Shown: positions 40,628-55,476 of the stretch, one piece after another
Position numbering within the stretch: position 1 is the stretch's first letter
Layout: the number at the start of each line of letters is the position of its first letter
Assembly (NCBI RefSeq): GCF_029457495.1
Contig: NZ_CP120361.1
Location: forward strand, 3,364,001 to 3,428,000
Reading direction: 5' to 3'
From: Chelativorans sp. AA-79
GTDB taxonomy: Bacteria > Pseudomonadota > Alphaproteobacteria > Rhizobiales > Rhizobiaceae
DNA length: 64,000 bases
The notes under the pieces: model-generated
What the model was told of the DNA's origin: nothing
The model's input: the letters and a program-made list of their open reading frames with translations, nothing else
Databases searched by the model: none
Position numbers and translations under genes: made by a program

Positions 40628-43600
40628 TCAGGCGAGCGGAACCGTCCGCCTGACGGGCAGGCCCGCCCCCACGAGCGCGCTCGACTGGGCGACGGACACC
40701 TCGATCGCCGCCGGCGGTTCGGAAAAGTCGGCCGCCATCATCGCAGCCGTGTAGACCCAGGCCGGCGCGGCGGCGGTCGCGGTTCTCACGCTCGCCCCAC
40801 CGGGCAGCCCGATCCCGATCCGGTAGAGCTCCCGCTCCTCGCCGAGCGGGATGTCCTCTCCCATCCAGCTATCTGCATCCACGCGGCCGCGCCTGATCCA
40901 GGACAGATGCAGGTCGCCAGCGTGCATCCGTGCCCGCAGATGCACCGGCGAGAGTGGCAGCAGCGCCTGCCTTCCGCCCTCGGCCGGGACGCGGAGGAAA
41001 TACTCGTCCGAGATGTCGTAGCCCGCCGGTCCGATGCGCCAGTTGAGCTCGAGCCCGATCTCCTCGGGCTTCAGCCCCGCGGGCGCCACCGCCTCGTCGA
41101 GGAAGACGAACGGCGCGCCCGCCTCCGCCCCCGCCGCCATCGCATCGCTGGTGCCGAGCTGTCCGCGCAGAAGCCCCTTCAACCGCCACACCGAAGGCTC
41201 GATCTCCTCCGCCTCCTCGAACTGGAGGATCTCCCACGCGCCCGCCATCGACCGCACGGCGGCGGCGTTCCCGCCGTTCAGCATGTGCAGGCGCGAAATG
41301 CTCTGGAGCTCTCCGTCCAGCAGCCGCACGTCGAGCGTGATGGAGCGGTCGAACCGCCCTTCCGCCGCCCCGGCGGGCAGGGCCTGCCGCAGCAGGCCGA
41401 TCACCGCCCTGCTCGCCGTCGTCCCGCGCAGGTCAAATCCGGTCTCCTCCGGCGAAGCGAGCACGGCCTGCGTCCGCCAGGGTGCCGCCCGCACGGCAAG
41501 CCGGAACTGGTCCTGCGGCGCGTCCTGCGACGAGCGCGACGGCAGATCGAGGAACAGCGCATAAGGCTTGCTCGGAACATACACGCCGCCGGAACCACCG
41601 CCGGGACCCGGCACATTCTTCGCGGGCGGAGCCGCAACGCGCACGATCCGCCGCGCCTTCACGAGCCGGGCGAGCCCGTCCTCCACCTCCTCCACCAGGT
41701 AGTCGGGTCCCTCCGCCTCCCCCGGCAAGCGCAGGACATTTCCCGCGTCGATGCGCCTTTCGGCTCCAGGCACGGCGAAAGTCACGCGCTCCCGCCCGTC
41801 CCAGCTTCGCCGCAGGAGATTGCGTGCGAGGCTCTCGGCCTCGCCCACGGCAAGCGCTCCCGGAAAGGAGAAGAAGCTCGTGCCGCTCCCCTTCGCGCCC
41901 ACATAGTCGGCCGCCGCCGTCGCCGACTGGTGCTCGTTCATCGGATCGGTGAAATCGATCTGCACCAGCGCCGGCAGATCATGATCCGGCTGGCGCACGC
42001 GCTCCACCGTCTCGCGTCCGTCCTCCAGCATCAGTTCCTCCAGCGCCACCGCCTTTCCGGCACCCGCGCCTTCCGTGGCGAAGACGAGCCCTTGGTCGCC
42101 ATCCATCGCGGCGATGCCGAAGAGCGTGGCGATCGGCTCGATGGCCGCGCGCGCGGTGGTGGGATTTGTCACCACGTAGCCCGCCACCATGCCGTCCGCC
42201 CGCGACGTGTCGGCGGGCGGCAGCCCGTGATCGGCCAGGATGGCCTCGATAAGCGCTTCGACCGGAACGCCGCTCAGCCGGCCGTTCAGCCAATGCCCGC
42301 TCCACCAGTTGTCGCCATCTCCCCAGACATTCCCCTGCAGCGGGAAAGCCGGGAAAGGCCGGGCGTCCCAAGCCCAGATGCCGATGCCGCCCACGTCCAC
42401 CATCGGCCCGCCATAGACGGGCGAGACGGGGTTGGCCGCCGGTCCCCCGTCCTCCCAATGGCGATAATGCGCCATCAGGAAGCGGTGCTGCGCGAGATCC
42501 GAGCGTCCGCCGTTGGAAAAATAGGGCACCGCGCTCTCGGCTGACTTCGGATCGCCGAAGACGTTCGGTTGGTTCGGCCCCTTGTCGATCGCCGCGCAGC
42601 CGAGCTCGGTGAAATGGATCGGCTTCGACATCGGCACCCAGGCGGTCGGCGTGGCCTGCTCCACGCCGCCGACGCGGTTATGGTGGCGGTTCGACCACCA
42701 GCCGGCGAGGTCCTTGTAGCGGTACACCCAGTGCTTGCCATGGGCACCGTCGATGATCGGCGTCCGCCGCCGCGCCGCCCGGTCCGCGGCACTCGCATAG
42801 TACCAGTCGAACCCCTCGCCCGCGGCGATCGCGGTCCGCAGGCCATCCGGATCGTAGGGCCCGGTGAAACCGTCGGGATTGCTGCCGTCCACGTCCTGGT
42901 CGCGCCAGTCGGAGAGCGGCATGTAGTTGTCGATGCCGACGGCATCGATCGCCGGATGCGCCCACAGGCTGTCGAGATGAAAGAAGACGTCGCCCGAGCC
43001 GTCCGCCGGCTGGTGGCCGAAATACTCGCTCCAGTCGGCCGCATAGGTGATCGCCGTCGCATCGCCCAGGATGCCCTGCGCCTCCGCCGCCAGTTCCACC
43101 AGCAGTTCCACGAAGGGAAAGCGGTTCGCCCCGTCCCTGAGCGTCGTGAGTCCGCGCAGTTCCGAACCGATGAGGAAGGCGTCCACCCCGCCCGCCGCCT
43201 CCGCGAGATGGGCGTAATGCAGGAGAAACCGGCGATAGCTCCATTCGCCGGAATTGCCGTCGAACCGGATCGTTTCGCCGCTGCGCCGGAACTGCGCCGG
43301 CATGGCCGTCCCGGCAAACGCGACGATTTCGTTCCGCACCGCTGCCGTCTTGTCCGGCGTCCCGGCCCTCCCCGGCGCCGGATGGCAGGTGATGCGGCCG
43401 CGCCATGGATAGGCCGGCTGCGCGCCCCCGCCATAGGGGTTCGGCAGTGCGTTGTCCGCCGGCACGTCCATCATGATGAAGGGGTAGAGCGCCACCTTCA
43501 GACCCCTTTCGCGGATCGCCCCGATCGCCTCCATCACCGAGCGGTCCGTGGGCGTTCCGCCATAGGCGGCCTTGCCGTCGTTGCGCGAAACGGTCTCCGC

Positions 43601-44527
43601 CTCTTCCCGGCTCACGCCGGAGACCTGCCAGTCCGCGGACAGCCCGTCCGGGTCGTCCTGCGTCACCATCGGCTTGATCCTGCATTCGCCGGCGCGCAGG
43701 TCCGTGCCGAACCAGGAGACCACGAGCGACACGGTCTCGAGGTTGGGGCAGAGCATCTGCAATTCGTCCAGCGAGGCCTCGAAATCGGTCGCCGCGGTCA
43801 GCACGTGGCGGTTCACCGCTTCCGTCTCGCCGAGACCCCTTTGCAGCCGTACCAGCTTCGGCGAGAGCCCGTATTCCGTCGATCCGGGAATGAGCGCCAC
43901 CGATCTGATGCGGCGGTTGAGCTCGCCCACGGGACGGATCACCTCGAACTGAAACTGCGGGATGCGCCTCCCGTAATCGTCGATCGGAAAGCGCTCGATC
44001 ACCACATAGGCCGTGCCGCGATAGGCAGACGCGTTGCCCTCTCCCTGCTTCGCCTCGATCAGCGGGTCCACCGGCTGGTGCTCCGAGCCCGGATAGACGC
44101 GGATCTCCACCTCGCCCCGGTCCACCTCCTTGCCGTCGGCCCAGATCCGGCGCACGCCGGCGATCTCGCCTTCGCAAAGCGCGAAGGCCGCGTTGGCGAA
44201 ATAGGAATAGTCGGTGACCTTCGGCCCGCCTCCCTTGCCGCCCTGCCGGCTCGTCGTGCTCTTCTCCTCGAACCGCGTCGCCCAGATCAGCGTGCCGCTC
44301 GTGCGCACCGTGCCGTAGAGACGCGGCAGGGGCGCGCCGTCCTCGGCTGTGAACGGCCTCGCCGACGTCAGCCGCGGTCCCTCGTAACGCTGTGTGCCCG
44401 TGATCAGCGCCCGGTCGACCATATAGCCGGCTATCGCGCCCGCGGCCGAGCCGATGGCCGTGCCGACCGGGCCGAACACGCCGCCCAGGAACGCACCGGC
44501 CGCCTGCAGAAGGATGGTCGCCATCAT
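40628..44527 (-). CDS. GTA tail-tip protein with TIM-barrel domain (RcGTA g15-like)
   Basis: A 1299-residue protein, the length of RcGTA g15. A hydrophobic Gly/Ala-rich N-terminus (GAFLGGVFGPVGTAIGSAAG) leads to a baseplate/hub domain; residues about 250-720 hold the GTA TIM-barrel-like region (VDAFLIGSELRGLTTL, AADWSEYFGHQP, IDAVGIDNYMPLSDW, FTELGCAAIDKGPNQPNVFG), which resembles glycoside hydrolases. A phage tail-3 domain follows (VERVRQPDHDLPALVQIDFT), then beta-rich receptor-side domains. It forms the tail tip that meets the recipient cell surface. It is preceded by repeat copy 1 rather than overlapping g14. Confidence 0.93.
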   Translation of the reverse strand: MMATILLQAAGAFLGGVFGPVGTAIGSAAGAIAGYMVDRALITGTQRYEGPRLTSARPFTAEDGAPLPRLYGTVRTSGTLIWATRFEEKSTTSRQGGKGGGPKVTDYSYFANAAFALCEGEIAGVRRIWADGKEVDRGEVEIRVYPGSEHQPVDPLIEAKQGEGNASAYRGTAYVVIERFPIDDYGRRIPQFQFEVIRPVGELNRRIRSVALIPGSTEYGLSPKLVRLQRGLGETEAVNRHVLTAATDFEASLDELQMLCPNLETVSLVVSWFGTDLRAGECRIKPMVTQDDPDGLSADWQVSGVSREEAETVSRNDGKAAYGGTPTDRSVMEAIGAIRERGLKVALYPFIMMDVPADNALPNPYGGGAQPAYPWRGRITCHPAPGRAGTPDKTAAVRNEIVAFAGTAMPAQFRRSGETIRFDGNSGEWSYRRFLLHYAHLAEAAGGVDAFLIGSELRGLTTLRDGANRFPFVELLVELAAEAQGILGDATAITYAADWSEYFGHQPADGSGDVFFHLDSLWAHPAIDAVGIDNYMPLSDWRDQDVDGSNPDGFTGPYDPDGLRTAIAAGEGFDWYYASAADRAARRRTPIIDGAHGKHWVYRYKDLAGWWSNRHHNRVGGVEQATPTAWVPMSKPIHFTELGCAAIDKGPNQPNVFGDPKSAESAVPYFSNGGRSDLAQHRFLMAHYRHWEDGGPAANPVSPVYGGPMVDVGGIGIWAWDARPFPAFPLQGNVWGDGDNWWSGHWLNGRLSGVPVEALIEAILADHGLPPADTSRADGMVAGYVVTNPTTARAAIEPIATLFGIAAMDGDQGLVFATEGAGAGKAVALEELMLEDGRETVERVRQPDHDLPALVQIDFTDPMNEHQSATAAADYVGAKGSGTSFFSFPGALAVGEAESLARNLLRRSWDGRERVTFAVPGAERRIDAGNVLRLPGEAEGPDYLVEEVEDGLARLVKARRIVRVAAPPAKNVPGPGGGSGGVYVPSKPYALFLDLPSRSSQDAPQDQFRLAVRAAPWRTQAVLASPEETGFDLRGTTASRAVIGLLRQALPAGAAEGRFDRSITLDVRLLDGELQSISRLHMLNGGNAAAVRSMAGAWEILQFEEAEEIEPSVWRLKGLLRGQLGTSDAMAAGAEAGAPFVFLDEAVAPAGLKPEEIGLELNWRIGPAGYDISDEYFLRVPAEGGRQALLPLSPVHLRARMHAGDLHLSWIRRGRVDADSWMGEDIPLGEERELYRIGIGLPGGASVRTATAAAPAWVYTAAMMAADFSEPPAAIEVSVAQSSALVGAGLPVRRTVPLA

Positions 44528-44556: not shown

Positions 44557-44782
44557 TCCCCCTCTCTCGCAAATTCCAAGGACTTGGCTCCGCCAGGCCC
44601 GGGAATTTGCTTTCTCTCCCGCAAGGGGAGAGACAACGCCGGCATCAACTTTCCTGCCAATCGCCAGCGCCGGTGATTTTGCCGAGGCGATGGCGCAGGA
44701 CGCCTATCTCTCCCCTTGCGGGAGAGAAAGCGATCTCAACATCTTAGCCGCAGGCTAAGTGTTGGAAATCGCAAGAGAGAGG
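44557..44782. repeat. composite palindromic repeat, copy 1 (between g14 and g15)
   Basis: About 226 bases, flanked by CCCCCTCTCTCGC and GCAAGAGAGAGG as inverted ends. It contains a left stem (AAATTCCAAGGACTTGGC with GCCAGGCCCGGGAATTT), central inverted CTCTCCCGCAAGGGGAGAG and CTCTCCCCTTGCGGGAGAG, and a right stem GCGATCTCAACATCTTAGCC/GGCTAAGTGTTGGAAATCGC. Copies 2 and 3 lie at 50084 and 53920 in the same operon. Confidence 0.85.
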
Positions 44783-44800
44783 TAACTCCATTGGCCAAAT

Positions 44801-45235
44801 CTACGGAAAAGCGAAAACCCCGGCGATGCGCCGACGCCACTGCGGCACGAGCGCCGAGGTCACGACGCCCCGGCCCTCATAGGCGTGGATGAACGCATCC
44901 CCGCTCACCAGAATGCCCGCATGCTTGGCCGGCAAGTGCTGGCGCCAGCGGAAGAGCACGAGCCTGCCCGGTACGAGATCGGCCCTCCCGCATTCGATGA
45001 AGTGCCGCCTGGCCGCGTCGAGCAGCCGTTCCTCGCCGCTCGCCTCGGCCCAATCCATGCTGTAGGGGCCGGGCGGCTCCGGCTCGCCGCCATAGAGCTC
45101 CATCCAGACACCGCGGACGAGGCCCAGGCAATCGCAGCCCACGCCCCTGCGGCTCGCCTGGTGCCGGTAAGGGGTTCCGAGCCAGGAAAGCGCTGCCGCG
45201 ATCACCGCTGCCGGCGCAGCCATGTCCTCGGTCAT
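44801..45235 (-). CDS. GTA NlpC/P60 cell-wall peptidase (RcGTA g14-like)
   Basis: A 144-residue NlpC/P60 protein. The catalytic cysteine lies in GVGCDCLGLVRGVW and the histidine in KHAGILVSGD, with LSWLGTPYRHQ and RLVLFRW as usual surrounding motifs. In RcGTA the corresponding protein sits in the tail and cuts recipient peptidoglycan during DNA entry. Its ATG overlaps the g13 stop by four bases. Confidence 0.92.
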   Translation of the reverse strand: MTEDMAAPAAVIAAALSWLGTPYRHQASRRGVGCDCLGLVRGVWMELYGGEPEPPGPYSMDWAEASGEERLLDAARRHFIECGRADLVPGRLVLFRWRQHLPAKHAGILVSGDAFIHAYEGRGVVTSALVPQWRRRIAGVFAFP

Positions 45236-46119
45236 TCCACGACAGGGCCGCCGTCGAAGACCTGCCCCTCCACCACATAAGAATAGCCGACGTCGTTCCC
45301 CGGCAGATGCGGGAAGCCGCGGAAATTGGCGCTGTTGGCAAATTTCGCCCTGCAGGTTGAAAACTGCTTGTCGCAGCCGGCGGTCACGGTGAAGGCATCG
45401 CCCGGCGCGACGGCCGCCGCCGTGTCCCGCCAGAGGTCGAGCACGGTCCCTTCGATGTCCTTCCGATGCGCAGAGACCCGTTCCCGCCGTCCGGCGCTCG
45501 CGCCCGAAGTCCAGGTCAGGATCCCGTTCGCGAACCAGCCGCTCTCGAACGCCTCGAGCCCGGAGACGGCAATGCTGTTGCCCTGCGTCGACACCAGCGT
45601 GCCCGCCCCCTTCCACCGGCCGTCCTCCAGGTTCACGCGGCAGCGCCCGTCGCCAAGCTCCGCATCGCAGAGCCTGCGCACCGTGCGGCCGTTTGTCTGG
45701 TCGAGCGCCCGTTCCGGGCTTTCCAGTTCCGCCACGAAGCGCCCGTCGCGTCGCGCGATCTGCCCGATCACCGCGCGCCTCAGCCGCGCGAACTCCTCCG
45801 GCCGCTGCCAGTTGACGAGCAGCGTCTCCACCGTCGCCCCGTCATAGAGACCCGCGACGACATCGCCTTCGCCGATGTCGAGCGAGGAGAGCGCCCCCTC
45901 GACATCCACGGTGTCGACGGCAAGCCCCAGCGAGCGCCGCGCTTCGGTCGCCGAAAGCCCGGTCTCCGGCATGAACACCGTGCCGTCGCAGGCGATCTGC
46001 CGGTCATGGTCGGTGAAGCCCATCACCTGGCCATCGCCGCGCGTCAGCCGCCAGCAATGGCAGAGCGTGGTGACCTCCTTTCCCAGATGCGCCGCAAGCG
46101 CGGCCGGAATCTTCGCCAT
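45232..46119 (-). CDS. GTA tail hub protein, DUF2163/BR0599 (RcGTA g13-like)
   Basis: A 295-residue protein. The N-terminal DUF2163 region has LCHCWRLTRGDGQVMGFTDH and SSLDIGEGDVVAGLYDGA; the C-terminal BR0599 region has CDKQFSTCRAKFANSANFRG and FPHLPGND. Cysteines in RRLCDAELGDGRCRVN and AGCDKQFSTCRAKF could hold the Fe-S cluster reported for the RcGTA hub; this is from family knowledge, not shown here. The start and the g12 stop share one base (TGATG). Confidence 0.92.
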   Translation of the reverse strand: MAKIPAALAAHLGKEVTTLCHCWRLTRGDGQVMGFTDHDRQIACDGTVFMPETGLSATEARRSLGLAVDTVDVEGALSSLDIGEGDVVAGLYDGATVETLLVNWQRPEEFARLRRAVIGQIARRDGRFVAELESPERALDQTNGRTVRRLCDAELGDGRCRVNLEDGRWKGAGTLVSTQGNSIAVSGLEAFESGWFANGILTWTSGASAGRRERVSAHRKDIEGTVLDLWRDTAAAVAPGDAFTVTAGCDKQFSTCRAKFANSANFRGFPHLPGNDVGYSYVVEGQVFDGGPVVE

Positions 46120-46757
46120 CACAGCACCTCCACCAGCGGGATCGAGGGGATCTGACCGGCCCGGAACGCCGTCACGCACGCCGAAAGCCGTTCCGTGTCG
46201 AAGCGCACGGGCACGTCGAACTCGAAGCCGGCGGTGATCTTCTCTCCCGCCGCCGGTATGGCGCCGGCGGAGAAGACCAGTTCACCCGTCTCCGGATCGG
46301 TCGAATAGTCGGCCGAGATCTGTTTCGGCACGCCGGCCACCGCAACCAGCACGGTCTCGGCCACGGGCCGCGTGATTTCGCGCCGATAGGCATCCTCTCC
46401 CACGCCGTAAGTCTTCATGAGCACAAATCGGCTCGTTGCTCCATCGCCCATGCCGATCTCCTGGTCGAAGGCGGTCGGCGCCCGGTGCGGCGCGGAGGAT
46501 TTCATGTCGAACGGATCGCGGAAGCGGAACGCATGCAGCGAGCCGCGCCGCGCCTCGAAGAAGGCCATCACCTCGTAGAGGTCTTCGAGCGAGCGCACAC
46601 CGGTCCCCGCGTCGTAATGCCTGCGCGAATGCGCCATGCGCGCGTTGCGCTTTTCCCGGCCCGAGGTGAGCTGCACGATCTCGTTGCGCCGCTCCGGCCC
46701 ACCCGTCGCGCCGAAGGAGACGCCGAGCGGAAAGCGCACGTCGTGAAAACTGTTCAT
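46119..46757 (-). CDS. GTA distal tail protein, DUF2460 (RcGTA g12-like)
   Basis: A 212-residue DUF2460 protein beginning MNSFHDVRFPLGVSFGATGG, with HYDAGTGVRSLEDLYEVMAF, RRGSLHAFRFRDPFDMKSSA and a C-terminal TAGFEFDVPVRFDTERL, matching the distal tail protein that connects tail tube and hub. It is the only tail gene with a 225-base untranslated gap upstream (an inverted repeat), so its translation starts independently of g11. Confidence 0.93.
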   Translation of the reverse strand: MNSFHDVRFPLGVSFGATGGPERRNEIVQLTSGREKRNARMAHSRRHYDAGTGVRSLEDLYEVMAFFEARRGSLHAFRFRDPFDMKSSAPHRAPTAFDQEIGMGDGATSRFVLMKTYGVGEDAYRREITRPVAETVLVAVAGVPKQISADYSTDPETGELVFSAGAIPAAGEKITAGFEFDVPVRFDTERLSACVTAFRAGQIPSIPLVEVL

Positions 46758-46808
46758 GAGAGTTCCTGAATTTGTTTGACATACCGCGACCGTCGCGGAG
46801 TTGGGACC

Positions 46809-46945
46809 GTTCAGGCATGGATCTCGGTCGAACCCGAGGATGACGAACGCATGGAGCGCTTCCGCTGCTCGCCAGCATCGGAGGTTTGCGGAAACCTCTC
46901 CTCCTCGTCATCCTTCGGGCTCGACCCGAGGATCCATGCCTGAAC
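46809..46945. repeat. long inverted repeat between g11 and g12, unlike the other repeats
   Basis: The arms GTTCAGGCATGGATC...CGAGGATGACGA (46809-46846) and TCGTCATCC...GGATCCATGCCTGAAC (46905-46945) are about 38-41 bases long and nearly complementary. An inner AGGTTT/AAACCT stem lies between them. The GGATGACG and TCGACCCGAGGATCC words are typical of dispersed intergenic palindromes of Rhizobiales. Confidence 0.8.
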
Positions 46946-46982
46946 GTCGCCGCCTCGCCTGCGCTGGTAGACGGTCACCGAT

Positions 46983-47537
46983 CTACAGCGTCCGCGTCCC
47001 GCGCGAGACGGCACGCGCCAGCATGCCCGAGATCTGCGCCTCGGACTTGCGGAAGGAAGCGGCATCCGGCGTCGTCACGTTGAAGACGATCTGCGCTCCG
47101 CCACCTCCCCCACCCGCAGCGACGCCCAACCGTCCATCGGAAGTCCTTTGCAGCGGCAGGATCGCCTCCGCGCCCGCCTCGCCCATCAGGCCGATGTTCC
47201 TTCCAGCGGGAAAATAGGTGGGGGCCGAGACGATACCGCCGCTCGCGAACGGCACGACTCCACCCTTCGCGAAAGGCAGGATGCTTCCGAGCAGCCCCGA
47301 AAACAGCGAGCCCGCAATTCCCTGCAGCGGTTTCAGCCCCTGCTCCAGCGCCATGCCCGCCAGGTTGAGCCCGATCCTGCGCAGCACGTCGTCAAGCGAT
47401 TTCCCGCTTGTCGCCGCGCTCTTCAGCGCGCCCGTAAGCTGCGTCCCGAATGTTTCCGAAAGCGTCGCCAGGTTCTCCAGCGCAGCCTCGAACGGTGCCG
47501 TGTCGGCGACGATCGGCACCCTCACCTCATCTGCCAT
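46983..47537 (-). CDS. GTA tape measure protein (RcGTA g11-like)
   Basis: A 184-residue protein: N-terminal ADEVRVPIVADTAPFEAALE, a helical middle (TLSETFGTQLTGALKSAATS, SLDDVLRRIGLNLAGMALEQ) and a Gly-rich C-terminus (LPFAKGGVVPFASGGIVSAP, GLMGEAGAEAILPLQR) as in minor tail proteins. It is short for a tape measure, in keeping with the short tail of GTA particles. It overlaps g10.1 by eleven bases. Confidence 0.9.
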   Translation of the reverse strand: MADEVRVPIVADTAPFEAALENLATLSETFGTQLTGALKSAATSGKSLDDVLRRIGLNLAGMALEQGLKPLQGIAGSLFSGLLGSILPFAKGGVVPFASGGIVSAPTYFPAGRNIGLMGEAGAEAILPLQRTSDGRLGVAAGGGGGGAQIVFNVTTPDAASFRKSEAQISGMLARAVSRGTRTL

Positions 47538-47709
47538 CGGTTTTCTCCGGATTGTCGGGGAAAAGGCGCATGAGCCGGTGAAGCTCGTCGCGCCCCGGCG
47601 CACTCCCGCGCCTCAGCCCCAGCGCCTGAAGCGCTGCATTGAACTCGATGGGCGTCATGGCCCAGAACGCAGCGGGGGCGAGCCGCAGCAGGCCGAAGGC
47701 GGCGCCCAT
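47527..47709 (-). CDS. GTA tail assembly chaperone-like protein (RcGTA g10.1-like, PF09550)
   Basis: A 60-residue protein with GLLRLAPAAFWAMTPIEFNA, the hallmark of the small DUF2376/Phage_TAC_6 family located between g10 and g11 in GTA clusters. GGGAGGAGG lies just before the ATG; a GTG one codon upstream is an alternative start. It is 44 bases after g10 and overlaps g11. Probably assists tape measure folding. Confidence 0.85.
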   Translation of the reverse strand: MGAAFGLLRLAPAAFWAMTPIEFNAALQALGLRRGSAPGRDELHRLMRLFPDNPEKTDGR

Positions 47710-47753
47710 CACCTCCTCCCAAGGGAAAGGCGCCCTCGGCCCCGCTGCGGCTT

Positions 47754-48095
47754 CTAAGGGCGCGTCGCCGTCTCCCCTCCCGCCTCGGCCCCGAAGGTCA
47801 CGGCCAGAAGCTCGGCCACGAGCCGGGCGAAGCCTGCCGCCCCACCCTCGCAATGCATGTCGCGCACCTCGTTCTCGCTCACTTCGTGCCCGCCGCCCCT
47901 CAGGCCGGCGGCGATAATGGCGCTCATGTCGCGGGCGGAGAGCCTGCCCGTTCCAAATCTTTCGACAAGCTGGTTCAGGTTTTCCGCCGCAAAGGCCGCC
48001 TCCAGCTCGGCCAGCGCACCCAGCGTCAGGCAGAGCCGGTAATCGCGCCCGTCCAGCCTAGCGGCCATCTCGCCGCGCCGGCGGTTCACGCTCAT
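47754..48095 (-). CDS. GTA tail assembly chaperone (RcGTA g10-like)
   Basis: A 113-residue protein: SVNRRRGEMAARLDGRDYRL, LTLGALAELEAAFAAENLNQ, RFGTGRLSARDMSAIIAAGL, the pattern of the gene transfer agent family protein (Phage_TAC_11). It is coupled to the tail tube gene by an ATGA overlap. Likely chaperones the tape measure with g10.1. No programmed frameshift site was identified. Confidence 0.9.
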   Translation of the reverse strand: MSVNRRRGEMAARLDGRDYRLCLTLGALAELEAAFAAENLNQLVERFGTGRLSARDMSAIIAAGLRGGGHEVSENEVRDMHCEGGAAGFARLVAELLAVTFGAEAGGETATRP

Positions 48096-48508
48096 GGCGC
48101 CACCTCGAAGCTCACCGGACCCGCCGATTCCAGCGCGATCTCGAACGTCACCTCCCCGTCGTGATTGCCCGCATATTCGAGCGAGGTGACCTGGAACGGC
48201 CCCGCCACCACGCCGAAATCGGGAATCGCGAACTGCCACGCCGCGATCTCGCCGGCAAAGAAGCGGGCGCGCACCGCCATGTCAGACTGCGCATCCTTGA
48301 AGATGCCGGAACCACCGATGGAAGCCCGCTGCACGCCGCTGCCGGCAAGCAGCTCGCGCCAGCGCCCGGCCGAATCCGCATCCGTCACGTCTACCGTCTC
48401 GCTGTTGAAGGCGAGGCGCTTGGTCCGCAGCCCCGCCACCGTGATGAAACTCCCAAGCCCGTCCTCGTCGAGCTTCAGGAGCAGGTCCTTGCCCTTCTTC
48501 GCGACCAT
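48092..48508 (-). CDS. GTA major tail (tube) protein (RcGTA g9-like)
   Basis: A 138-residue beta-rich protein, MVAKKGKDLLLKLDEDGLGS at the start, with SETVDVTDADSAGRWRELLA and FAGEIAAWQFAIPDFGVVAG, matching phage major tail protein TP901-1/GTA g9. It forms hexameric rings of the tail tube. GGGAGACC precedes the ATG; the gap to g8 is 48 bases, so it has its own initiation site, as expected for an abundant protein. Confidence 0.92.
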   Translation of the reverse strand: MVAKKGKDLLLKLDEDGLGSFITVAGLRTKRLAFNSETVDVTDADSAGRWRELLAGSGVQRASIGGSGIFKDAQSDMAVRARFFAGEIAAWQFAIPDFGVVAGPFQVTSLEYAGNHDGEVTFEIALESAGPVSFEVAP

Positions 48509-48556
48509 GATGGTCTCCCTTTGGTGTGAATTGTGTTCGCACGGGAAGCACGGGCG

Positions 48557-48964
48557 CTACGGCAGTTCCACCACAGCCCTGAACCGCATGCTGCCGTCGA
48601 ACACCGCGAGATCCTCGTCGAATCGGATGTCGGAAAACTCCAGCCGCAGGTTGACGAGATCGTGCCCCGAAAGCGCCAGATCCTTCTCGTGCAGCGCCGC
48701 GCGCACGCGCTCCATCAGCGCCAGCGCCTCCCGCCGCCCCTTCTGCTTCGACCAGACATGCAGCGTGAACAGATGCTCGCTGCCTTCCTCCGTCCCCGTG
48801 CTCCAGTCATAGGTGCTGGTGCGGCCGAAGGTGATGTAAGGAAAATTCAGATTGGCGGGCGTCACATCATGGAACTTCGCACCGCCAAGGGCCGTCACAA
48901 GCGCGCTGTCCGCCTTCAGCGCGGCGAACACCGCCTCCTGCAGGTCAAGTGTCGCCGCCGTCAT
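48557..48964 (-). CDS. GTA tail terminator, DUF3168 (RcGTA g8-like)
   Basis: A 135-residue DUF3168 protein: DLQEAVFAALKADSALVTAL, FPYITFGRTSTYDWSTG, HVWSKQKGRREALALMERV. It caps the tail tube and joins it to the head. AGGAGACGAGG precedes the ATG, which lies within the end of the upstream 58-residue frame (20-base overlap). Confidence 0.93.
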   Translation of the reverse strand: MTAATLDLQEAVFAALKADSALVTALGGAKFHDVTPANLNFPYITFGRTSTYDWSTGTEEGSEHLFTLHVWSKQKGRREALALMERVRAALHEKDLALSGHDLVNLRLEFSDIRFDEDLAVFDGSMRFRAVVELP

Positions 48965-49121
48965 CCTCGTCTCCTCTGCGCATCCCGGCGCGGCGTTCGG
49001 GCCGTCTGCCTGCTTCGTCCCGCGGGTGCCCGCCGCTCTCCACCGCATCCGCGAGCTCGTGCGCCTTCACGCGCATGGCCCGCACCAGCCCGTCGAGCGT
49101 CAACTGCATGCTGAGCTTCAT
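48945..49121 (-). CDS. 58-residue coupled small protein inside the GTA cluster
   Basis: A short frame, MKLSMQLTLDGLVRAMRVKA then HELADAVESGGHPRDEAGRR and an Arg/Asp-rich end. Its ATG overlaps the g7 stop by four bases (ATGA) and its end overlaps the g8 start by 20 bases, the same coupling as the known GTA genes. The N-terminal 27 residues look like one amphipathic helix. RcGTA has no named gene here. It could be a small assembly factor or merely a bridge that delivers ribosomes to g8. Confidence 0.6.
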   Translation of the reverse strand: MKLSMQLTLDGLVRAMRVKAHELADAVESGGHPRDEAGRRPERRAGMRRGDEDDGGDT

Positions 49122-49453
49122 CGCCCCTCCTCGCGCACGAGGCAGGCGAGATACCGGCCCGTCCCGTCCGCGTCCTCGACCGTCACGATCTCCAAAGCCC
49201 GCCCTTCCTTCAGGAATCGCATGCCGCTTCGCACATCCGCCCGGTGCCGGAGCATCACGCGGTGCGTCGCAGTCTCCAGGAACTGCGCCACGCCGAAGCG
49301 GCTTTCCGCCCGCAGAGGCACGACCTCGGCGAAGACACGCGCCACCTCGCCCCAATTTTCGGTATGCCCGCCGGCGCCGTCTTCCACCACTGCCGCCGCT
49401 TGAAGCACGAGCTCCGTCCGCAGGCGGCCGGGATCGATCACGAGCCTCTTCAT
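49118..49453 (-). CDS. GTA head-tail connector/stopper (RcGTA g7-like)
   Basis: A 111-residue protein of the phage head-tail joining family: MKRLVIDPGRLRTELVLQAA, WGEVARVFAEVVPLRAESRF, THRVMLRHRADVRSGMRF, ending in GRYLACLVREEGR. It closes the head portal until tail docking. Start and the g6 stop share one base (TGATG). Confidence 0.92.
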   Translation of the reverse strand: MKRLVIDPGRLRTELVLQAAAVVEDGAGGHTENWGEVARVFAEVVPLRAESRFGVAQFLETATHRVMLRHRADVRSGMRFLKEGRALEIVTVEDADGTGRYLACLVREEGR

Positions 49454-50022
49454 CAGAGCCTCGGCGTCTGCCAGGCGGCAATCAGCCGGCGGTATTCGTC
49501 GGGAAAGGAAACGGGCTGGCTCTCGGTGCCGTAGACGCCGCGGAACTCGTACCAGTGGGTGACCAGCATCAGCATCGCCCGTTTGAGCAGGTCCGGCACG
49601 TCCGTCCCCGCCTCGCCGAAGCCGGCGGAAAAATCGATCTCGATGCCGTTGAGTTTCAGCCCCGGCATAGGCTTCCTCGCCAGGAACAGCCGCGCCGGCG
49701 CCGAGATCCCGTCGAGCTGGTAGTGCTCGGGAGAAAGCACCGAGCCGGCCCCCTCCGCGTCGAAAACCGTGATCGAAAGGATCTCGCGCACCGGCGTGCG
49801 CCGCAGATGCACCACGTCGTCGCATGGCCAGCCGTCGAGCAGAAGCCGCCAGGACTGGTTGATCAGGGCCGTGCCGGTCGCCCGTTCCACCTCCTGGCGC
49901 GCGGCGGCGATCAGTCCGCGGATCAACGCGTCCTCGCTGTCATGGCCGACGCGCATATGCTCTTTCGCCTCGCCGAGCGAGATCGGGTCGACCGCGGGAT
50001 CGGCCGTTCGGAACAGCGTCAT
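49453..50022 (-). CDS. GTA head-tail adaptor (RcGTA g6-like)
   Basis: A 189-residue protein: DPISLGEAKEHMRVGHDSED, LIRGLIAAARQEVERATG, QSWRLLLDGWPCDDVVHLRR, and DLLKRAMLMLVTHWYEFRG, the gp6-like connector pattern. It forms the ring below the portal. It follows repeat copy 2, so it is not coupled to the capsid gene. Confidence 0.93.
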   Translation of the reverse strand: MTLFRTADPAVDPISLGEAKEHMRVGHDSEDALIRGLIAAARQEVERATGTALINQSWRLLLDGWPCDDVVHLRRTPVREILSITVFDAEGAGSVLSPEHYQLDGISAPARLFLARKPMPGLKLNGIEIDFSAGFGEAGTDVPDLLKRAMLMLVTHWYEFRGVYGTESQPVSFPDEYRRLIAAWQTPRL

Positions 50023-50083
50023 GAACGCCTCTCTTCATGTGTTGATTCAAGGGAAAGGATCGGGGGCGAGGCATGCGGCCGCG

Positions 50084-50309
50084 CCCCCTCTCATGCAAAT
50101 TCCAAGGACTTAGCCTTCGCCTAAGCCCAGGAATTTGCTTTCTCCCCCGCAAAGGGGGAGATAGACGCTTGCGCCGCCGTCTCCGCTAATCGCCAACGCG
50201 GAAGATGCGCAGCAAGGCCGATGCCGGCGATATCTCCCCCCTTGCGGGGGAGAAAGCGATTTCAACATCTTAGCCGAAGGCCAAGTGTTGGAAATCGCAA
50301 GAGAGGGGG
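50084..50309. repeat. composite palindromic repeat, copy 2 (between capsid gene and g6)
   Basis: About 226 bases with inverted ends. Left stem: 50095-50113 with 50121-50138 (GCAAATTCC...CTTAG / CTAAG...GGAATTTGC). Second stem CTCCCCC/GGGGGAG at 50142-50160. A variable centre follows. Right stem: 50256-50275 with 50279-50298 (GCGATTTCAACATCTTAGCC / GGCCAAGTGTTGGAAATCGC). Same order of parts as copies 1 and 3. Confidence 0.88.
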
Positions 50310-50319
50310 TTTGCCTCCC

Positions 50320-51576
50320 CTACCCCGCCGAGAACTTCAAAAGCTTGATCGCCTCGAAGTTCTGGATGCCGCCGCCCACGCGCTTGGTCGTGTAGAACAG
50401 CACGTAGGGTTTGGCCGAATACGGGTCGCGCAACACGCGAACGCCCGTGCGGTCCACCACCAGGTATCCGCGCGCGAAGTCGCCGAAGGCGATCGGGATC
50501 GTGCCCGAGCCGATATCCGGCATGTCCTCGGCCTCGACCACGGGGAAGCCCATCAGCATGGCGCGGCTGCCGGGTGCTGCCGGCGGCTGCCACAGATAAT
50601 TGCCGTCGCCGTCCTTGAGCTTGCGCAGTGCCGCCTGCGTCTTGCGGTTCATCACCCAGTCGGCGTTCTGGCGGTAGCCCGCCTTCAGCATGTAGACGAG
50701 GTCCACCAGCACGTCGGCGGGGGCTTCCACCGGCAGGGCGCCGTCCGTGCCGGTCGCCACATAGCCGACATTGCCCCAGCTCCAGGTGAGGTCGTTCACC
50801 TGCGGATAGTCGAGGAAGCCGCGCGGCTTGTTCACGCCGTCGCCGCCAACGAAGGCCGCACCCTCCTGCTCGGCGAAGGCAGTCTCGATCTCGCCGGCGA
50901 TCCAGGCGTCGAGATCGACGACGCTGTCCTCCAGAAGCGCCTGTGTCGCCGCCGGCATGGCGTAGAGCTCCGCCGTCGGGAAGGAAAGCTCGTCGAGCAT
51001 GCTCGACGCCGTCTCCGGCCGCGCCGCCGTCTCGCCCACCCAGCCCGTCGCCGGGCCGCTCACCGCGAAGGGCTTCTTCAAGACCGCGGTCGAGACCTGG
51101 CGCACCGAGGCGATGGAGCGGATCGGCGAAATCGCTGCCAGCCGCTTGCCGATCTCGGCCTCCGTCTCCTCCGGCACGAGATAGCCGCCGTCCTGGCTTG
51201 AGCCGTAGGACATCGCCTTCTCCTCCAGCGCCCGAAGCTGCCGGTCGTCGCCACTGCGAATATAGCCCTCGAAGGCCTGCTTGTGCTCCAGATGCGCGAG
51301 CGAGCCCATTCCCTCACGTCCCAGGGCAGGACGCCCCTTCTTCAGCACCAGCCGGTCGAGCGCCTTTTTCTGCTCGTCGAGCGCGGCCGAGATGCGCTCC
51401 ACCTTTTCCGTCGTCAGCGGATCGGCCGAGCGGCGCTCGATCTTCTTCAGCCGTTCGTCATTCGCCTCCTTGAAGGCCTCGAAGGAAGTCATGAACTCCG
51501 CGAATGCGCCGGCGAGTTCGTCACCTGCCCCGGCCGATTTCACTTCCAGGACGCCTCTGTTCCTTGCGTCGGTCAT
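50320..51576 (-). CDS. GTA major capsid protein, HK97 fold (RcGTA g5-like)
   Basis: A 418-residue HK97-type capsid protein. Residues 1-100 are a charged coiled-coil delta domain (FEAFKEANDERLKKIERR, TEKVERISAALDEQKKALDR) removed by the prohead protease; the mature part includes YLVPEETEAEIGKRLAAISP, AAFVGGDGVNKPRGFLDY, MNRKTQAALRKLKDGDGNYL and YLVVDRTGVRVLRDPYSAKP. It is three bases after g4 and is followed by repeat copy 2. Confidence 0.96.
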   Translation of the reverse strand: MTDARNRGVLEVKSAGAGDELAGAFAEFMTSFEAFKEANDERLKKIERRSADPLTTEKVERISAALDEQKKALDRLVLKKGRPALGREGMGSLAHLEHKQAFEGYIRSGDDRQLRALEEKAMSYGSSQDGGYLVPEETEAEIGKRLAAISPIRSIASVRQVSTAVLKKPFAVSGPATGWVGETAARPETASSMLDELSFPTAELYAMPAATQALLEDSVVDLDAWIAGEIETAFAEQEGAAFVGGDGVNKPRGFLDYPQVNDLTWSWGNVGYVATGTDGALPVEAPADVLVDLVYMLKAGYRQNADWVMNRKTQAALRKLKDGDGNYLWQPPAAPGSRAMLMGFPVVEAEDMPDIGSGTIPIAFGDFARGYLVVDRTGVRVLRDPYSAKPYVLFYTTKRVGGGIQNFEAIKLLKFSAG

Positions 51577-51579
51577 CGT

Positions 51580-52260
51580 TCAATCCCGTTGTTGCAGAAG
51601 TTTCGTTGCCCGGCGGATCGTCGCCGCCAGGCGTTCCGGTGTTCCCGGCGCGGCGTCCCGCTCGCGCAGGAGGTGAGCGAAGCCTCGTGCAATCACCGTC
51701 TTGGCCTCGCTTCGCGTCAGCCCCGCATCCCGCGTGAGCCAGCGCTCGAATTCCCTTGGGCTCGGCAGGTCGCCCCGCCCCTTCACCGTCTCCACGCGCG
51801 CCTCCGGCAGCATGGGGAAGGTCACGACCGAGATCTCCCAGAGATCGGCCTTCTTGATGCGGCGGATGCCCGTGCGCGGCTCGCTCACCGCTTGCTGACT
51901 GCGGAAGCCGATGGAGAGCCCGTCGAGCGCGCCGTCCCGCATCAATTCCAACACCTCGCGCGCCCGGCCCACGCCGGTGGCCAGCTTGCCGCGCACGAAG
52001 AGCCCGCGCTCGTCCTCGCGGATCTCCCGCCAGGCGCCGATCGGCTGGTTCGGATCGTGCTGGAACAGCATGCGGATCCCGCCCGCCCCCCGTTTGGTGA
52101 TCGACTCGGAGAAGGCGCCCCGCTCCACCAGGTCACGGCCGAGATCCACCCGGCCGAACAGGCTCGCATAGCCGGAGAAGGTCCCGTCCGCCTCCACCTG
52201 CTCCACGTCGAGGCTCGAATATTTCCGCTCGTCCGGTCCGCCGGCGATCTTCATCCTCAT
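51580..52260 (-). CDS. GTA prohead protease, HK97 family (RcGTA g4-like)
   Basis: A 226-residue HK97 prohead protease: GTFSGYASLFGRVDLGRDLV, MLFQHDPNQPIGAWREIRED with the catalytic histidine, and LDGLSIGFRSQQA with the catalytic serine. It trims the capsid delta domain before packaging. ATG at 52260 and 52254 are both possible; the first starts four bases after the g3.5 stop. It is followed by the capsid gene. Confidence 0.93.
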   Translation of the reverse strand: MRMKIAGGPDERKYSSLDVEQVEADGTFSGYASLFGRVDLGRDLVERGAFSESITKRGAGGIRMLFQHDPNQPIGAWREIREDERGLFVRGKLATGVGRAREVLELMRDGALDGLSIGFRSQQAVSEPRTGIRRIKKADLWEISVVTFPMLPEARVETVKGRGDLPSPREFERWLTRDAGLTRSEAKTVIARGFAHLLRERDAAPGTPERLAATIRRATKLLQQRD

Positions 52261-52264
52261 CCGT

Positions 52265-52597
52265 TCAATCCCTCGCTGCTTCCTGCTGACCGCGCCCCGC
52301 ATTGCCGAGCAGGCGCATGACGAAGCCGATCGCGCTCCAGGCGCACAGGCTCGCGGCGGCCGAACCCATGAGCACGAGTTCGCCCGGCGCCAGCCTCCCG
52401 GCGATGCCGAGCTCCGTCGCGATCTTCAGCCCCGCCGTGCCGCCGAAGACGAGGCCGCACACCACGCCCACCGCGAAGCGGATCGCCGCTTCGCGCCGCC
52501 CCGGCGGCAGGATGTAAGCAAGGGAGATCGCGGAACCCGCGACCGCGCCGATCATCTTGACGGCCCACAGCCAGGCCGCTTCGCCCAGTCCGGTCAT
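52265..52597 (-). CDS. small membrane protein between portal and protease (RcGTA g3.5-like)
   Basis: A 110-residue protein with hydrophobic segments WLWAVKMIGAVAGSAISLAY, FAVGVVCGLVFGGTAGLKI and LVLMGSAAASLCAWSAIGFV. A small gene of this type (DUF6127) holds the same place in RcGTA (g3.5) and its function is not settled. An in-frame ATG at 52618 gives seven extra residues; GAAGGATCC before 52597 favours the shorter form. Four bases separate it from g4. Confidence 0.75.
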   Translation of the reverse strand: MTGLGEAAWLWAVKMIGAVAGSAISLAYILPPGRREAAIRFAVGVVCGLVFGGTAGLKIATELGIAGRLAPGELVLMGSAAASLCAWSAIGFVMRLLGNAGRGQQEAARD

Positions 52598-52695
52598 TGG
52601 TGGATCCTTCCTGTTCATCTCTCCACTGACCCCGCCATCGATCTTTTCTTTCCGGCGCCGTACCCGCGCCTTGTTCTCCCGCCCGACATGCGCTC

Positions 52696-53868
52696 TCACC
52701 CGCCATGGGAGCCGTACCCCACGGCCTCGCGCTTCTCGTCGTCGGTGAGGAAGCTGGCGTCGTTCACCCGCGCCCACAGCGCTTCGCGCTCTGCCGCGAG
52801 CCCCTCCACCTGGTCGGCGTCGAGCCACAGCCGCACGTCCCCGCCGAAGCGCGGGGCCAGGAACCCTCCGAGTTCCTTGGCGATGCGGCCGACCAGCGGC
52901 AGCACCGTCAGCCGGTAGAATGCCCGGTTCGCCTCCTGGTAGTTGGCATAGGTGTTGTCGCCGGGGATGCCGAGCAGCATGGGCGGCACGCCGAGCGCCA
53001 GCGCGATATCGCGCGCCGCCCCGTTCCGCGCCTCCATGAAATCCATATCCCTCGGGCTGAGGCTCATCACCTTCCAGTCGAGCCCGCCTTCGAGAAGCAG
53101 CGGCCGTCCGGCCTTCGCCGCGCCCGCATAGCCCTGCTCCAGTTCCGCCTTCAGCCGGTCGAACTGCTCGTCGGAAAGGTTCCCGCCCTCCTTCGGCGCA
53201 TAAACCAGCGCGCCGGATGGCCGCGCCGAATTGTCGAGCAGCGCCTTGGTCCAGCGCGCCGCCGCGTTGTGGATGTCCAGCGCCATGAGTGCTGCGGCAA
53301 GCGGCGCGAAGCCGTAATGGTCGTCGAGCGGGTGGAAGAGGGTCAGATGCACCCCTGTCCCGTCCTCCTCCAGCGAGACGCGCCGCTTCACGCTGCCCGC
53401 CCGGTGCTCCAGCGCCACGGGCCATCCATTCGCATCCGGCACCACCGTCACGCGATCGGGCCTCAAGAGGTGCATCTCGCGCGCCCCCGCCCCCGCCTCC
53501 ACCAGCTCGACATAAGCGTTGCCGGACAGCAGGAGATGCCCGTAGAGCACCTCCATGAAGCCCGGCCCCGCCTGCCGGTGGTTGGGCCGCGCCAGGAGGT
53601 CGAGCAGCGGATGCTCGGAAAGCTCCTCTTCTCCCGCATAAAGGAGCCAGGGCACGGAACCCGCCGCCTCGGCGATCATGCGCACCGCGCGATGCGCAAC
53701 CGGATTGCGCATGAAGCCTTCGCGGGAAAGCGAGACATAGTCGCGCCGCGTCCAGAGCGGCTCGCCCTGCGCATGCAGCGCCACGAAACCGTATCCGCCC
53801 GCCTGCTTCCGTTCGACAGACGCGTTCCCGCCTCCCGGACGCCGTGCCCAGGGCCATGTCCAAGCCAT
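52696..53868 (-). CDS. GTA portal protein (RcGTA g3-like)
   Basis: A 390-residue HK97-type portal protein (RcGTA portal is about 395): FMRNPVAHRAVRMIAEAAGS, HPLLDLLARPNHRQAGPGF, YGHLLLSGNAYVELVEAG, FHPLDDHYGFAPLAAALMAL and LGVPPMLLGIPGDNTYANYQ, then LAPRFGGDVRLWLDADQVEG. It forms the dodecameric DNA gate. ATG at 53868 after AGGAAACT. Repeat copy 3 lies between it and terL. Confidence 0.95.
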   Translation of the reverse strand: MAWTWPWARRPGGGNASVERKQAGGYGFVALHAQGEPLWTRRDYVSLSREGFMRNPVAHRAVRMIAEAAGSVPWLLYAGEEELSEHPLLDLLARPNHRQAGPGFMEVLYGHLLLSGNAYVELVEAGAGAREMHLLRPDRVTVVPDANGWPVALEHRAGSVKRRVSLEEDGTGVHLTLFHPLDDHYGFAPLAAALMALDIHNAAARWTKALLDNSARPSGALVYAPKEGGNLSDEQFDRLKAELEQGYAGAAKAGRPLLLEGGLDWKVMSLSPRDMDFMEARNGAARDIALALGVPPMLLGIPGDNTYANYQEANRAFYRLTVLPLVGRIAKELGGFLAPRFGGDVRLWLDADQVEGLAAEREALWARVNDASFLTDDEKREAVGYGSHGG

Positions 53869-53919
53869 ATGGAGTTTCCTGATTGTTGGGAAAAATCTGA
53901 GGGCATTCAGCGCTCGAAG

Positions 53920-54141
53920 CCCCCCTCTCTTGCAAATTCCAAGGACTTGGCTTGGCCAAGCCCAGGAATTTTCTTTCTCCCCCGCCAAGGGGAGATAGAC
54001 GCCGGCACCAGCCTTGCCGCCAATCGCCAACGTCAAGGAATGCGGAGGCGCTTGTACGCGCCTATCTCCCCCTCACTTGCGATTTCAACATCTTAGCCGG
54101 AGCGAAGCGGAGGCTAAGTGTTAGAAATCGCAAGTGAGGGG
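53920..54141. repeat. composite palindromic repeat, copy 3 (between terL and portal gene)
   Basis: About 222 bases. Left stem AAATTCCAAGGACTTGGC/GCCAAGCCCAGGAATTT, a CTCCCCCGCCAAGGGGAG stem, a variable centre and the right stem GCGATTTCAACATCTTAGCC/GGCTAAGTGTTAGAAATCGC with a longer loop (GGAGCGAAGCGGA). It lacks the CCTTGCGGGGGAGAAA block found before the right stem in copy 2. Confidence 0.87.
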
Positions 54142-54159: not shown

Positions 54160-55476
54160 TCAGGCGAAATCCCGTATCCGCGGCTCCGCCGCCCGCCCCA
54201 GCATCAGTTCGGTCACCGCCCACACCAGCGCGTCCACCCGGTCCGGCGATCTCCCGCCCGACAGCCCGTCCGTGCCGAAGTCGCACATCTCGTCCTCCAA
54301 ATCCGGGAAGCGCTGCGCGTGGCGCACCCGGCCCTGCGCATAGAGTGCGGCCACCGGTTCGGCCCGCACCCATTTGCCGCGGCTCGCCCGCACCGGCTTC
54401 ACCGGTGCCATGGCGTCCACCGCGCCGAGCACGCTGCCCACCATGTCGCCGCCCTGGTTCACCTCGGCCACGATCGCATCGGCCTCGAAGCGGCGGTAGA
54501 GCGCCACCGCCCGCGCGGCCCATTCCTGCGGCTTCGCTGCCCGCATCGTGCCATCGTGCAGCACCCAGCCGATGCCGTTCTCGTCGAGCCCTGCCACCAC
54601 CATGCCGCAGGCATCCGAGGTCCGGCGGCTCGTCGCCGGCGGGTCCACCGCCACGACGGTGCGCCGCATCGCCCTCGCCTCGCCCCAGCCGCGCGCGGCC
54701 TCCAGCTCGGCCCGGTTCCACAGCGCGTCCTCGCGGTCCTCGATCAGTTCGCCGTCGAGTTCCTGCCGGCCGAGCCTCGTGCCCGCATAATTGCGCTCCA
54801 CAGCGCGCAGGAAAGCGGCTGCGAGATGCGCGGTGTTTTCCACGGTGCGCATCCGCGTCACCGTCACGTCCGGGCTCGCCACCAGCCGCCGGATCAGCGG
54901 CACCGGCTTCGGTGTGGTGGTGAGGAGCTGCATCGGCCGCTGCCCGAGCCTCAGCCCGAACTGCAGCATGTCGAAGCAGGCTTCCGCGTTCTTCCACTTC
55001 GCCACCTCGTCGCACCAGGCGGCCTCGAACTGCGGCCCGCGCAGGCTGTCGGGGTCCTCCGAGGAGAACACCTGCGCAACCGCGCCGTTGTCCCAGACGA
55101 GCCTCCGCCGGCTCGGCTCGTAGCGCGGCGGGCCGTCGCGCGAGATGGAAAGGATCCCGGACGACCCCTCGATCATCACCTCGCGCACGTCGCCCAGCGT
55201 CTCGCCCACGAGCGCGATGCGCCCGTAGCGGTGCTCGGCGAACGGCGGAAGCTTCCGCACCAGCGCATTCACCCATTCCGCGCCGAGCCGCGTCTTGCCG
55301 GAGCCGCGCCCGCCCATCACCAGCCAGGCGTCCCTCAGCCGCGCCCCGACCGGATATTGCGGCAGGCGCGCGGAGCCCACCCACTCAGAAAGAATCCGCT
55401 GCGCCGCCTCCCCCGTCAGCTTCCCCGCCGCCCATGCTTGCTGCGAGCGCACAAGCGAGCTCCACGATGCGGGCAT
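54160..55476 (-). CDS. GTA large terminase subunit (RcGTA g2-like)
   Basis: A 438-residue packaging motor. The ATPase has Walker A LVMGGRGSGKTRLGAEW (Lys61) and Walker B/DE box FEAAWCDEVAKW; the nuclease domain has VAVDPPATS, DGTMRAAKPQEW, VAEVNQGGDMVGSVL and DRVDALVWAVTEL. In RcGTA this enzyme packages host DNA by headful filling, giving about 4 kb per particle. The start overlaps the small terminase gene by about 92 bases; a GTG at 55452 is an alternative. Confidence 0.94.
   Translation of the reverse strand: MPASWSSLVRSQQAWAAGKLTGEAAQRILSEWVGSARLPQYPVGARLRDAWLVMGGRGSGKTRLGAEWVNALVRKLPPFAEHRYGRIALVGETLGDVREVMIEGSSGILSISRDGPPRYEPSRRRLVWDNGAVAQVFSSEDPDSLRGPQFEAAWCDEVAKWKNAEACFDMLQFGLRLGQRPMQLLTTTPKPVPLIRRLVASPDVTVTRMRTVENTAHLAAAFLRAVERNYAGTRLGRQELDGELIEDREDALWNRAELEAARGWGEARAMRRTVVAVDPPATSRRTSDACGMVVAGLDENGIGWVLHDGTMRAAKPQEWAARAVALYRRFEADAIVAEVNQGGDMVGSVLGAVDAMAPVKPVRASRGKWVRAEPVAALYAQGRVRHAQRFPDLEDEMCDFGTDGLSGGRSPDRVDALVWAVTELMLGRAAEPRIRDFA

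Follow-up and report, generated by a model that had tools for sequence, protein, structure and literature searches.

The DNA analysed here, which we call the window, is a stretch of 64,000 nucleotides (positions 3364001-3428000) of the 5.31-Mb chromosome of Chelativorans sp. AA-79. It carries the operon of a gene transfer agent (GTA), in whose gaps stand three copies of a composite palindrome. Pfam matches give the gene order terL, portal, protease, capsid, connector and, further along, hub, NlpC/P60 and tip (GTA_TIM, Rcc01698_C), and these ordered genes, together with the GTA-specific domains GTA_TIM, Rcc01698_C and Phage_TAC_11, assign the locus to the RcGTA type. The genes of interest all lie on the minus strand. 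They are the large terminase (terL, 54160..55509; PF03237 and PF17289), the portal (52696..53871; PF04860, with its start set by alignment to relatives), the major capsid (50320..51576; PF05065), the head-tail connector (49453..50022; PF05135), the NlpC/P60 family gene (44801..45616) and the tip or host-specificity protein (40628..44527; GTA_TIM, Phage-tail_3 and Rcc01698_C).

A first-pass annotation of this DNA had reported three composite palindromes in the operon, and all three, 222-226 bp long, were found exactly where it had placed them. Copy A (44557..44782) has the NlpC/P60 gene on one side and the tip gene on the other, with a left hairpin (GCAAATTCC...GGAATTTGC) at 44569..44610 and a right hairpin at 44730..44771. 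Copy B (50084..50309; left hairpin at 50095..50138, right hairpin at 50256..50298) lies just past the capsid stop codon, at the site of a terminator-like hairpin in relatives. Copy C (53920..54141; left hairpin at 53932..53973, right hairpin at 54079..54131) occupies the gap between terL and the portal. None of these features is assigned a strand. That one copy each follows terL and the capsid gene and the third precedes the tip gene likewise agrees with the annotation: they stand 18, 10 and 18 bp, respectively, beyond the preceding stop codon. These distances, like the other gaps and distances to stop codons given for this genome, rest on our own simple gene caller.

The element is built of a CCCCTC end box, a variable hairpin, a CTCCCC stem, a centre, a second CTCCCC stem, another variable hairpin and a GAGGGG end box. 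By eye, the order of parts proposed in the annotation holds in the copies, the second CTCCCC stem being truncated in copy C. BLAST identity to copy B is 78% for copy A and 73% for copy C. We counted three occurrences, and no more, of the right stem GCGATTTCAACATCTTAGCC in the window and as many of the left motif GCAAATTCCAAGGACTTNGC (with up to 3 mismatches), where shuffles predict none for either. That the right stem keeps pairing while its sequence changes is borne out by 21 copies chosen from this and related genomes, in which 94.4% of cells are paired and 5 of 18 pairs have changed on both sides, with a covariation score reached in none of 500 shuffles, a control that leaves the kinship of the copies in. 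On either strand, RNA folding predicts strong structures (-106 to -148 kcal/mol), and no Rfam family matched within the window above its gathering threshold.

The three copies belong to a family dispersed along the chromosome. Copy B matched its own genome 47 times, both strands counted, always on the chromosome contig, and merging these matches gave 18 copies. Eleven of them measure 221-238 bp, two are truncated but retain both ends (173 and 133 bp), and the other five are partial. A profile search spanning 708 kb of this genome, in stretches partly picked around known copies, added two more diverged pieces (3342757-3342892 and 2554693-2554755). Hence, the copy number is at least 18; all our counts use 18 and exclude the two diverged pieces. 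The full and two-ended copies measure 133-238 bp and end in CCCCTC/GAGGGG. All 18 copies are intergenic, with a median distance of 23.5 bp to a stop codon (range 10-79 bp; within 40 bp in 16 of them). None occupies a divergent gap, which has a probability of 0.03 by gap number and 0.01 by gap length, and the 15 in co-directional gaps are oriented with the genes in 6 cases and opposite to them in 9. Half of the family (9/18) falls in 125 kb around the GTA locus (G000:C1 3408558-3533706), a clustering never seen in 20,000 uniform simulations, and three copies within 9.4 kb were reached in 0.7% of them. Neither skew nor gene-strand bias clearly placed the replication origin and terminus. The annotation had reckoned that hundreds of copies at random intergenic sites would speak for chance insertion of a common repeat; we found far smaller numbers, at least 18 copies for the window's family and, for a second type, 25 matches with both strands counted.

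What do the same junctions look like in relatives? The element is present in 18 of 61 relatives (own genome included) and in 13 of the 16 within the genus. The GTA loci of 12 relatives (11 of the same genus and one sister genome), the terL-portal junction being readable in 8 of them, gave no match to the element. Hence, the three copies are insertions of the AA-79 lineage. The full element is also absent from 80 named GTA loci, some of them incomplete and three of them also among the 12 relatives; only inner stem fragments match, in Brucella endophytica. The annotation had proposed either a mobile palindromic family tolerated in the gaps or folded RNA elements. The dispersed intergenic copies and the empty GTA loci of all 12 relatives support the former; a conserved GTA RNA device fits neither this absence, which the annotation itself had named as grounds for chance insertion, nor the mixed orientation of the copies relative to the genes.

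The junctions differ in what they hold elsewhere. The NlpC-tip junction of the 12 relatives is 15-28 bp long and without visible structure, and in other genomes the median length of this gap is 21 bp; of 76 such gaps, 3 hold a GC hairpin and none a hairpin with a T-run. The capsid-connector gap contains a GC-rich hairpin in 66 of 88 GTA loci (up to three of which are counted twice), followed by a T-run in 35 (L152, L156, L159 and L160 among the examples). The window lacks this hairpin and has copy B at the site, so copy B may have taken over the role of a capsid attenuator. Other, unrelated palindromes occupy the capsid-connector junction in locus L153 and, by eye, in L154 and L157, and a different CTCCC palindrome lies at the terL-portal junction of L161. 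Phyllobacterium phragmitis (L101) has CTCCC palindromes in four GTA junctions, including the window's three, and Brucella endophytica (L102) has CTCCC-type palindromes in three; both represent separate colonisation of the same GTA gaps. GTA junctions with overlapping or touching genes have almost no palindromes, and room for insertion suffices to explain the positions of the three copies. Among the GTA loci compared, one from a record titled Bacillus subtilis SK6B4 (L112) is a rhizobial locus, with a match identity equal to that of a Pseudochrobactrum locus (L113); this record is probably contaminated or mislabelled.

In nine relatives, the element clusters around a core of about 390 bp consisting of one gene that matches DUF559 (PF04480). 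The protein, of about 120 amino acids, belongs to a Vsr-like PD-(D/E)XK endonuclease family, and the analysed loci pass the curated profile cut-off. The profile search matched DUF559 in 34 of the 61 relatives and gave no match in AA-79. Of the 30 DUF559 loci retrieved from the relatives, 11 stand next to one another in the protein tree and bear the element, 2 of them on a single flank and 9 on both; it also surrounds the DUF559 gene of G035, making 12 related genomes in total. The element occurs in all 12 genomes with a matching DUF559 gene vs 6 of the 49 others (p = 1e-8), a test that is partly circular because the flanking copies themselves count as hits. In this test, the class of the twelfth gene (G035:C36) was assigned from DNA similarity, and the 49 other genomes include some DUF559 genes of unassigned class. 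The remaining DUF559 loci of the 30 found in the relatives mostly have, by eye, other palindromes of the same plan, and L237 retains a remnant only.

The association extends well beyond the element's own clade. We assembled 100 alphaproteobacterial DUF559 loci, 30 from the 61 relatives, 30 from 240 genomes searched across the class and 40 chosen from both lists, mostly on long contigs; none was dropped, and they include some, not all, of the matches listed. In 91 of them, a stem of the form CTCCC...GGGAG is located at most 300 bp away. Such stems were found in 138 of 197 near windows (280 bp, starting 20 bp from the DUF559 match), in 6/195, 2/194 and 1/192 windows farther out (9/581 in total) and in none of 60 control windows beside 30 cold-shock genes of the same 61 genomes. 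Long hairpins have the same distribution (54/197 near windows vs 3/195, 0/194 and 1/192 farther out); counted by locus, they mark 21 of 30 DUF559 loci vs 1 of 30 control loci of the same 61 genomes (p = 6e-8). A phylum-wide search returned 30 loci, 3 of them already included; among the 27 new ones, the stem is present in 11 of 12 from Alphaproteobacteria and in 12 of 15 from other classes of Pseudomonadota, with 0/24 and 1/30 in the respective far windows. Six plasmid loci that we picked from 15 listed of 44 records all have CTCCC stems, including both from Deinococcus. Overall, 133 DUF559 loci have stems within 350 bp on both sides in 68 cases and on one side in 54, and the commonest layout, seen in 37, places the end boxes nearest the gene on both sides.

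The palindromes also vary with the nuclease they flank. Flank similarity of at least 35 bits was found in 97% of 36 locus pairs at a protein distance below 0.5 and in 4% of 1855 pairs at a distance of 2-3, fading as the distance between the DUF559 proteins grows. Both flank palindromes that we tested, from the DUF559 loci of G018 and G029, recur elsewhere in their own genomes. Counting both strands, the G018 palindrome has matches in four of the 12 genomes searched (81 in G018, 27 in G026, 24 in G029 and 2 in G010) and none in the remaining 8. That of G029 has 53 matches in G029, 126 in G003, 68 in G035, 48 in G011, 29 in G018, 25 in AA-79, 12 in G028, 4 in G026 and 0 in four genomes. Palindrome types are thus common to several genomes, some without DUF559, and are not confined to one nuclease lineage. 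One 3.4-Mb single-contig genome (G072) has 10 DUF559 matches; the 7 analysed scatter over the tree and their flanks are mostly unlike.

Some arrangements are consistent with mobility. We compared 17 genomes at a site beside a gene taken to be tatC. By eye, the arrangement element-DUF559-element occurs in one genome, each element being preceded by a 13-bp direct repeat. At this site G003 is 95% identical and has another palindrome instead, and the other 15 show, also by eye, neither arrangement within the approximately 660 bp inspected. The 11 DUF559 genes of the element's clade lie in several genomic contexts. In G002, tandem units of the element and a spacer of about 24 bp stand beside a DUF559 gene, and two of the units are 93% identical. 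An element array in this genome (L180 7115-8880, G002:C2) flanks the DUF559 gene on both sides, with most copies 22-24 bp apart and the spacers of some adjacent copies almost identical.

An AlphaFold2 model of the DUF559 protein (mean pLDDT 79) was compared with known structures by Foldseek. The two best matches were the putative endonuclease 3HRL (E 1e-6) and the catalytic domain of the homing endonuclease I-Bth0305I, 3R3P (E 5e-4). Six residues invariant in 33 relatives (E25, D54, E65, D67, Q70 and H71) form, on our reading, a putative active site.

We hold with moderate confidence that the three GTA copies are non-autonomous members of this dispersed family of composite palindromes, a judgement made jointly with the one on their partner. 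The autonomous partner would probably be a DUF559 nuclease gene lying between its own palindromes, in an arrangement resembling that of repetitive extragenic palindromes (REPs) and REP-associated tyrosine transposases (RAYTs) but with a homing-type nuclease. This partner would have been lost from strain AA-79, or never present in it. By analogy with REP-RAYT systems, the nuclease would recognise the folded palindrome and nick or cut the DNA, and repair or strand transfer would copy the palindrome to new places. Landing would occur mostly just past stop codons, where hairpins may be tolerated, and the GTA operon, with its tight gene order, would have offered the copies only a few gaps to enter. 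We are evenly divided over a wider proposal, namely that DUF559 genes with CTCCC composite palindromes form a bacterial class of selfish elements that solves the REP-RAYT problem a second time, by unrelated means. In such elements, a homing-type PD-(D/E)XK nuclease would recognise a lineage-specific hairpin between the constant CCCCTC and CTCCCC boxes and copy it to sites after stop codons. Many intergenic CTCCC palindromes of Pseudomonadota and Deinococcus would then be its offspring, which in GTA operons would fill gaps and could replace the post-capsid hairpin.

A number of observations weigh against mobilisation by the nuclease. We did not observe mobilisation itself. The 11 full copies of AA-79 have a median pairwise identity of 70% and a maximum of 86%, so that most look old, and no target-site duplication is visible by eye at the copies of this genome. 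The similarity of flanks partly reflects shared descent, since some of the 11 loci also share their outer flanks, and DUF559 paralogues of the same genome sometimes have similar flanks too. The G029-type palindrome also occurs in G018 (29 matches) and G003 (126), where not all DUF559 genes are classed, and the copies of the window's element listed for G029 do not border its DUF559 gene. The 34 element pieces at the 11 loci are of mixed orientation, 23 along the gene and 11 opposite to it. Eleven of the 133 loci have no CTCCC stem within 350 bp by the pattern that we used, and only those 68 are two-sided. Palindromes exist without a DUF559 gene in AA-79, in G026 and, as one copy, in G006, and G007 has them with only a partial DUF559 match. 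Finally, the Foldseek similarity of the model to Vsr itself is weak (E 0.4).

The same facts could be explained by a DUF559 gene that does not act on the palindromes, a passenger carried and duplicated through homologous recombination between abundant palindromes of another origin, such as replication slippage or an unrelated, lost transposase. The tandem units of G002 look like products of recombination or slippage, AA-79 and G026 have the palindromes without the gene, and the gene-bearing sites vary among genomes. We nevertheless regard this as unlikely, given an association that is both frequent and specific (91/100 loci vs 0/60 cold-shock windows) and that reaches two Deinococcus loci, and given that flank similarity tracks nuclease similarity. 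As for the transposase, no Y1 transposase was found in AA-79 and there is one partial match in 16 same-genus genomes, PF01797 being the one transposase family searched. For the same reason, we rejected a REP-RAYT system as the engine in AA-79.

Folded RNA elements under selection, which would separate or stabilise segments of the GTA mRNA and so yield an excess of capsid, were the other proposal of the first-pass annotation. The strong predicted folds on both strands are in line with it, as are the post-capsid hairpin of 66 of 88 loci, 35 with a T-run, whose place copy B takes here, and the palindromes of other kinds at the same junctions elsewhere, at all three of them in Phyllobacterium phragmitis. 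Yet the 12 relatives lack the element at their GTA junctions, 15 of the 18 copies lie elsewhere in the genome and in both orientations to the genes, and the NlpC-tip gap of other genomes measures 21 bp at the median and rarely holds a GC hairpin (3/76). We consider selection for RNA function distinctly improbable. It is very improbable that the copies are ordinary rhizobial repeats of the REP type or of the type of rhizobium-specific intergenic mosaic elements (RIMEs), spread by a known but absent transposase, with DUF559 merely preferring sites nearby. Size, palindromic build and intergenic placement are reminiscent of the known rhizobial mosaic repeats. However, no RAYT-type gene (PF01797) was found in AA-79, and the link to DUF559 is closer and more widespread than a local habit would explain. 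The CCCCTC/GAGGGG end boxes are also unlike the GTAG or CGTC tags described in PMC3733652.

Several other features deserve mention. The annotation had described the operon as otherwise tight. The gene order is indeed tight, with few gaps, but there is a 225-bp gap at 46758-46982 and there are further gaps of 44-69 bp. The 225-bp gap contains a fourth palindrome (46811..46950, no strand assigned) of a different family (GGCATGGATC...GATCCATGCC). This family has more copies at the AA-79 loci L164, L166/L191 (overlapping) and L167/L014 (the same place), and partial copies in L192 and L167. A tblastn search for a DUF559 relic over 841 kb of AA-79 loci (overlaps counted) gave two weak matches; the better one runs antisense to another open reading frame, which presumably resembles SufE, and the second lies in L200 (E 0.003). 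A PADLOC match to DpdF (15.7 bits) was too weak for use.

How bacterial palindromic repeats arise has long been asked, and the answers to date concern mainly REPs with RAYT genes. If DUF559 were a second engine, repeats of several bacterial classes would gain a candidate mobiliser, and a family still named for its unknown function would gain a testable role. Our results also call for caution, since hairpins at operon junctions, here in a GTA, may be mobile insertions instead of conserved regulators, and copy B is a possible case of an insertion that took a regulator's place. A literature search, made mostly outside subscription journals, found no published link of DUF559 or Vsr to such repeats.

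Several known systems invite comparison. MITEs (miniature inverted-repeat transposable elements) and the rhizobial RIME/ABC mosaic repeats are short, non-coding, intergenic, multi-copy elements with terminal inverted repeats, and the element of AA-79 shares these traits: it has terminal inverted repeats and no coding capacity, and is intergenic and multi-copy. As to the target-site duplication of MITEs, none was seen by eye at the AA-79 copies, and a 13-bp direct repeat was seen at one gene-bearing locus. DUF559, which lies between copies, is only a candidate for the parent with shared ends that a MITE would have, and the likeness to RIME/ABC is one of general description. The enzyme model resembles I-Bth0305I, a Vsr-like homing endonuclease of the EDxHD type, whose catalytic domain (3R3P) is among the two best matches. 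It is a nuclease tied to mobility; the DUF559 gene is free-standing beside palindromes and is not an intron or intein homing gene. For Vsr mismatch endonucleases, mismatch repair alone would not account for the palindromes. Caulobacter VsrA has the same DUF559 domain as the partner genes found here and, where a cytosine methyltransferase is missing, brings about an SOS response in part of the cells (PMC12907096); the string "palindrom" does not occur in the text of that paper.

The closest parallel is to REP-RAYT systems and REPINs. REP-RAYT systems consist of a small nuclease gene between its own palindromes, with dispersed and often clustered copies in which compensating changes preserve the palindrome (PMC2817692), and enzyme and palindrome co-evolve (PMC8266576). 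REPs themselves are described as short palindromes of 20-40 bp, many with a GTAG/CGTC tag (PMC3733652). The DUF559 loci share with them the small nuclease gene flanked by genome-dispersed palindromes and the compensating changes, and thus appear to work alike without being members. The enzyme flanked by the palindromes is of the PD-(D/E)XK type and not an HUH tyrosine (Y1) transposase. The repeats are composites of about 110-240 bp (133-238 bp in AA-79) with CCCCTC/GAGGGG ends in place of short tagged palindromes, and the range over which we saw the arrangement comprises Alphaproteobacteria, other Pseudomonadota and Deinococcus.

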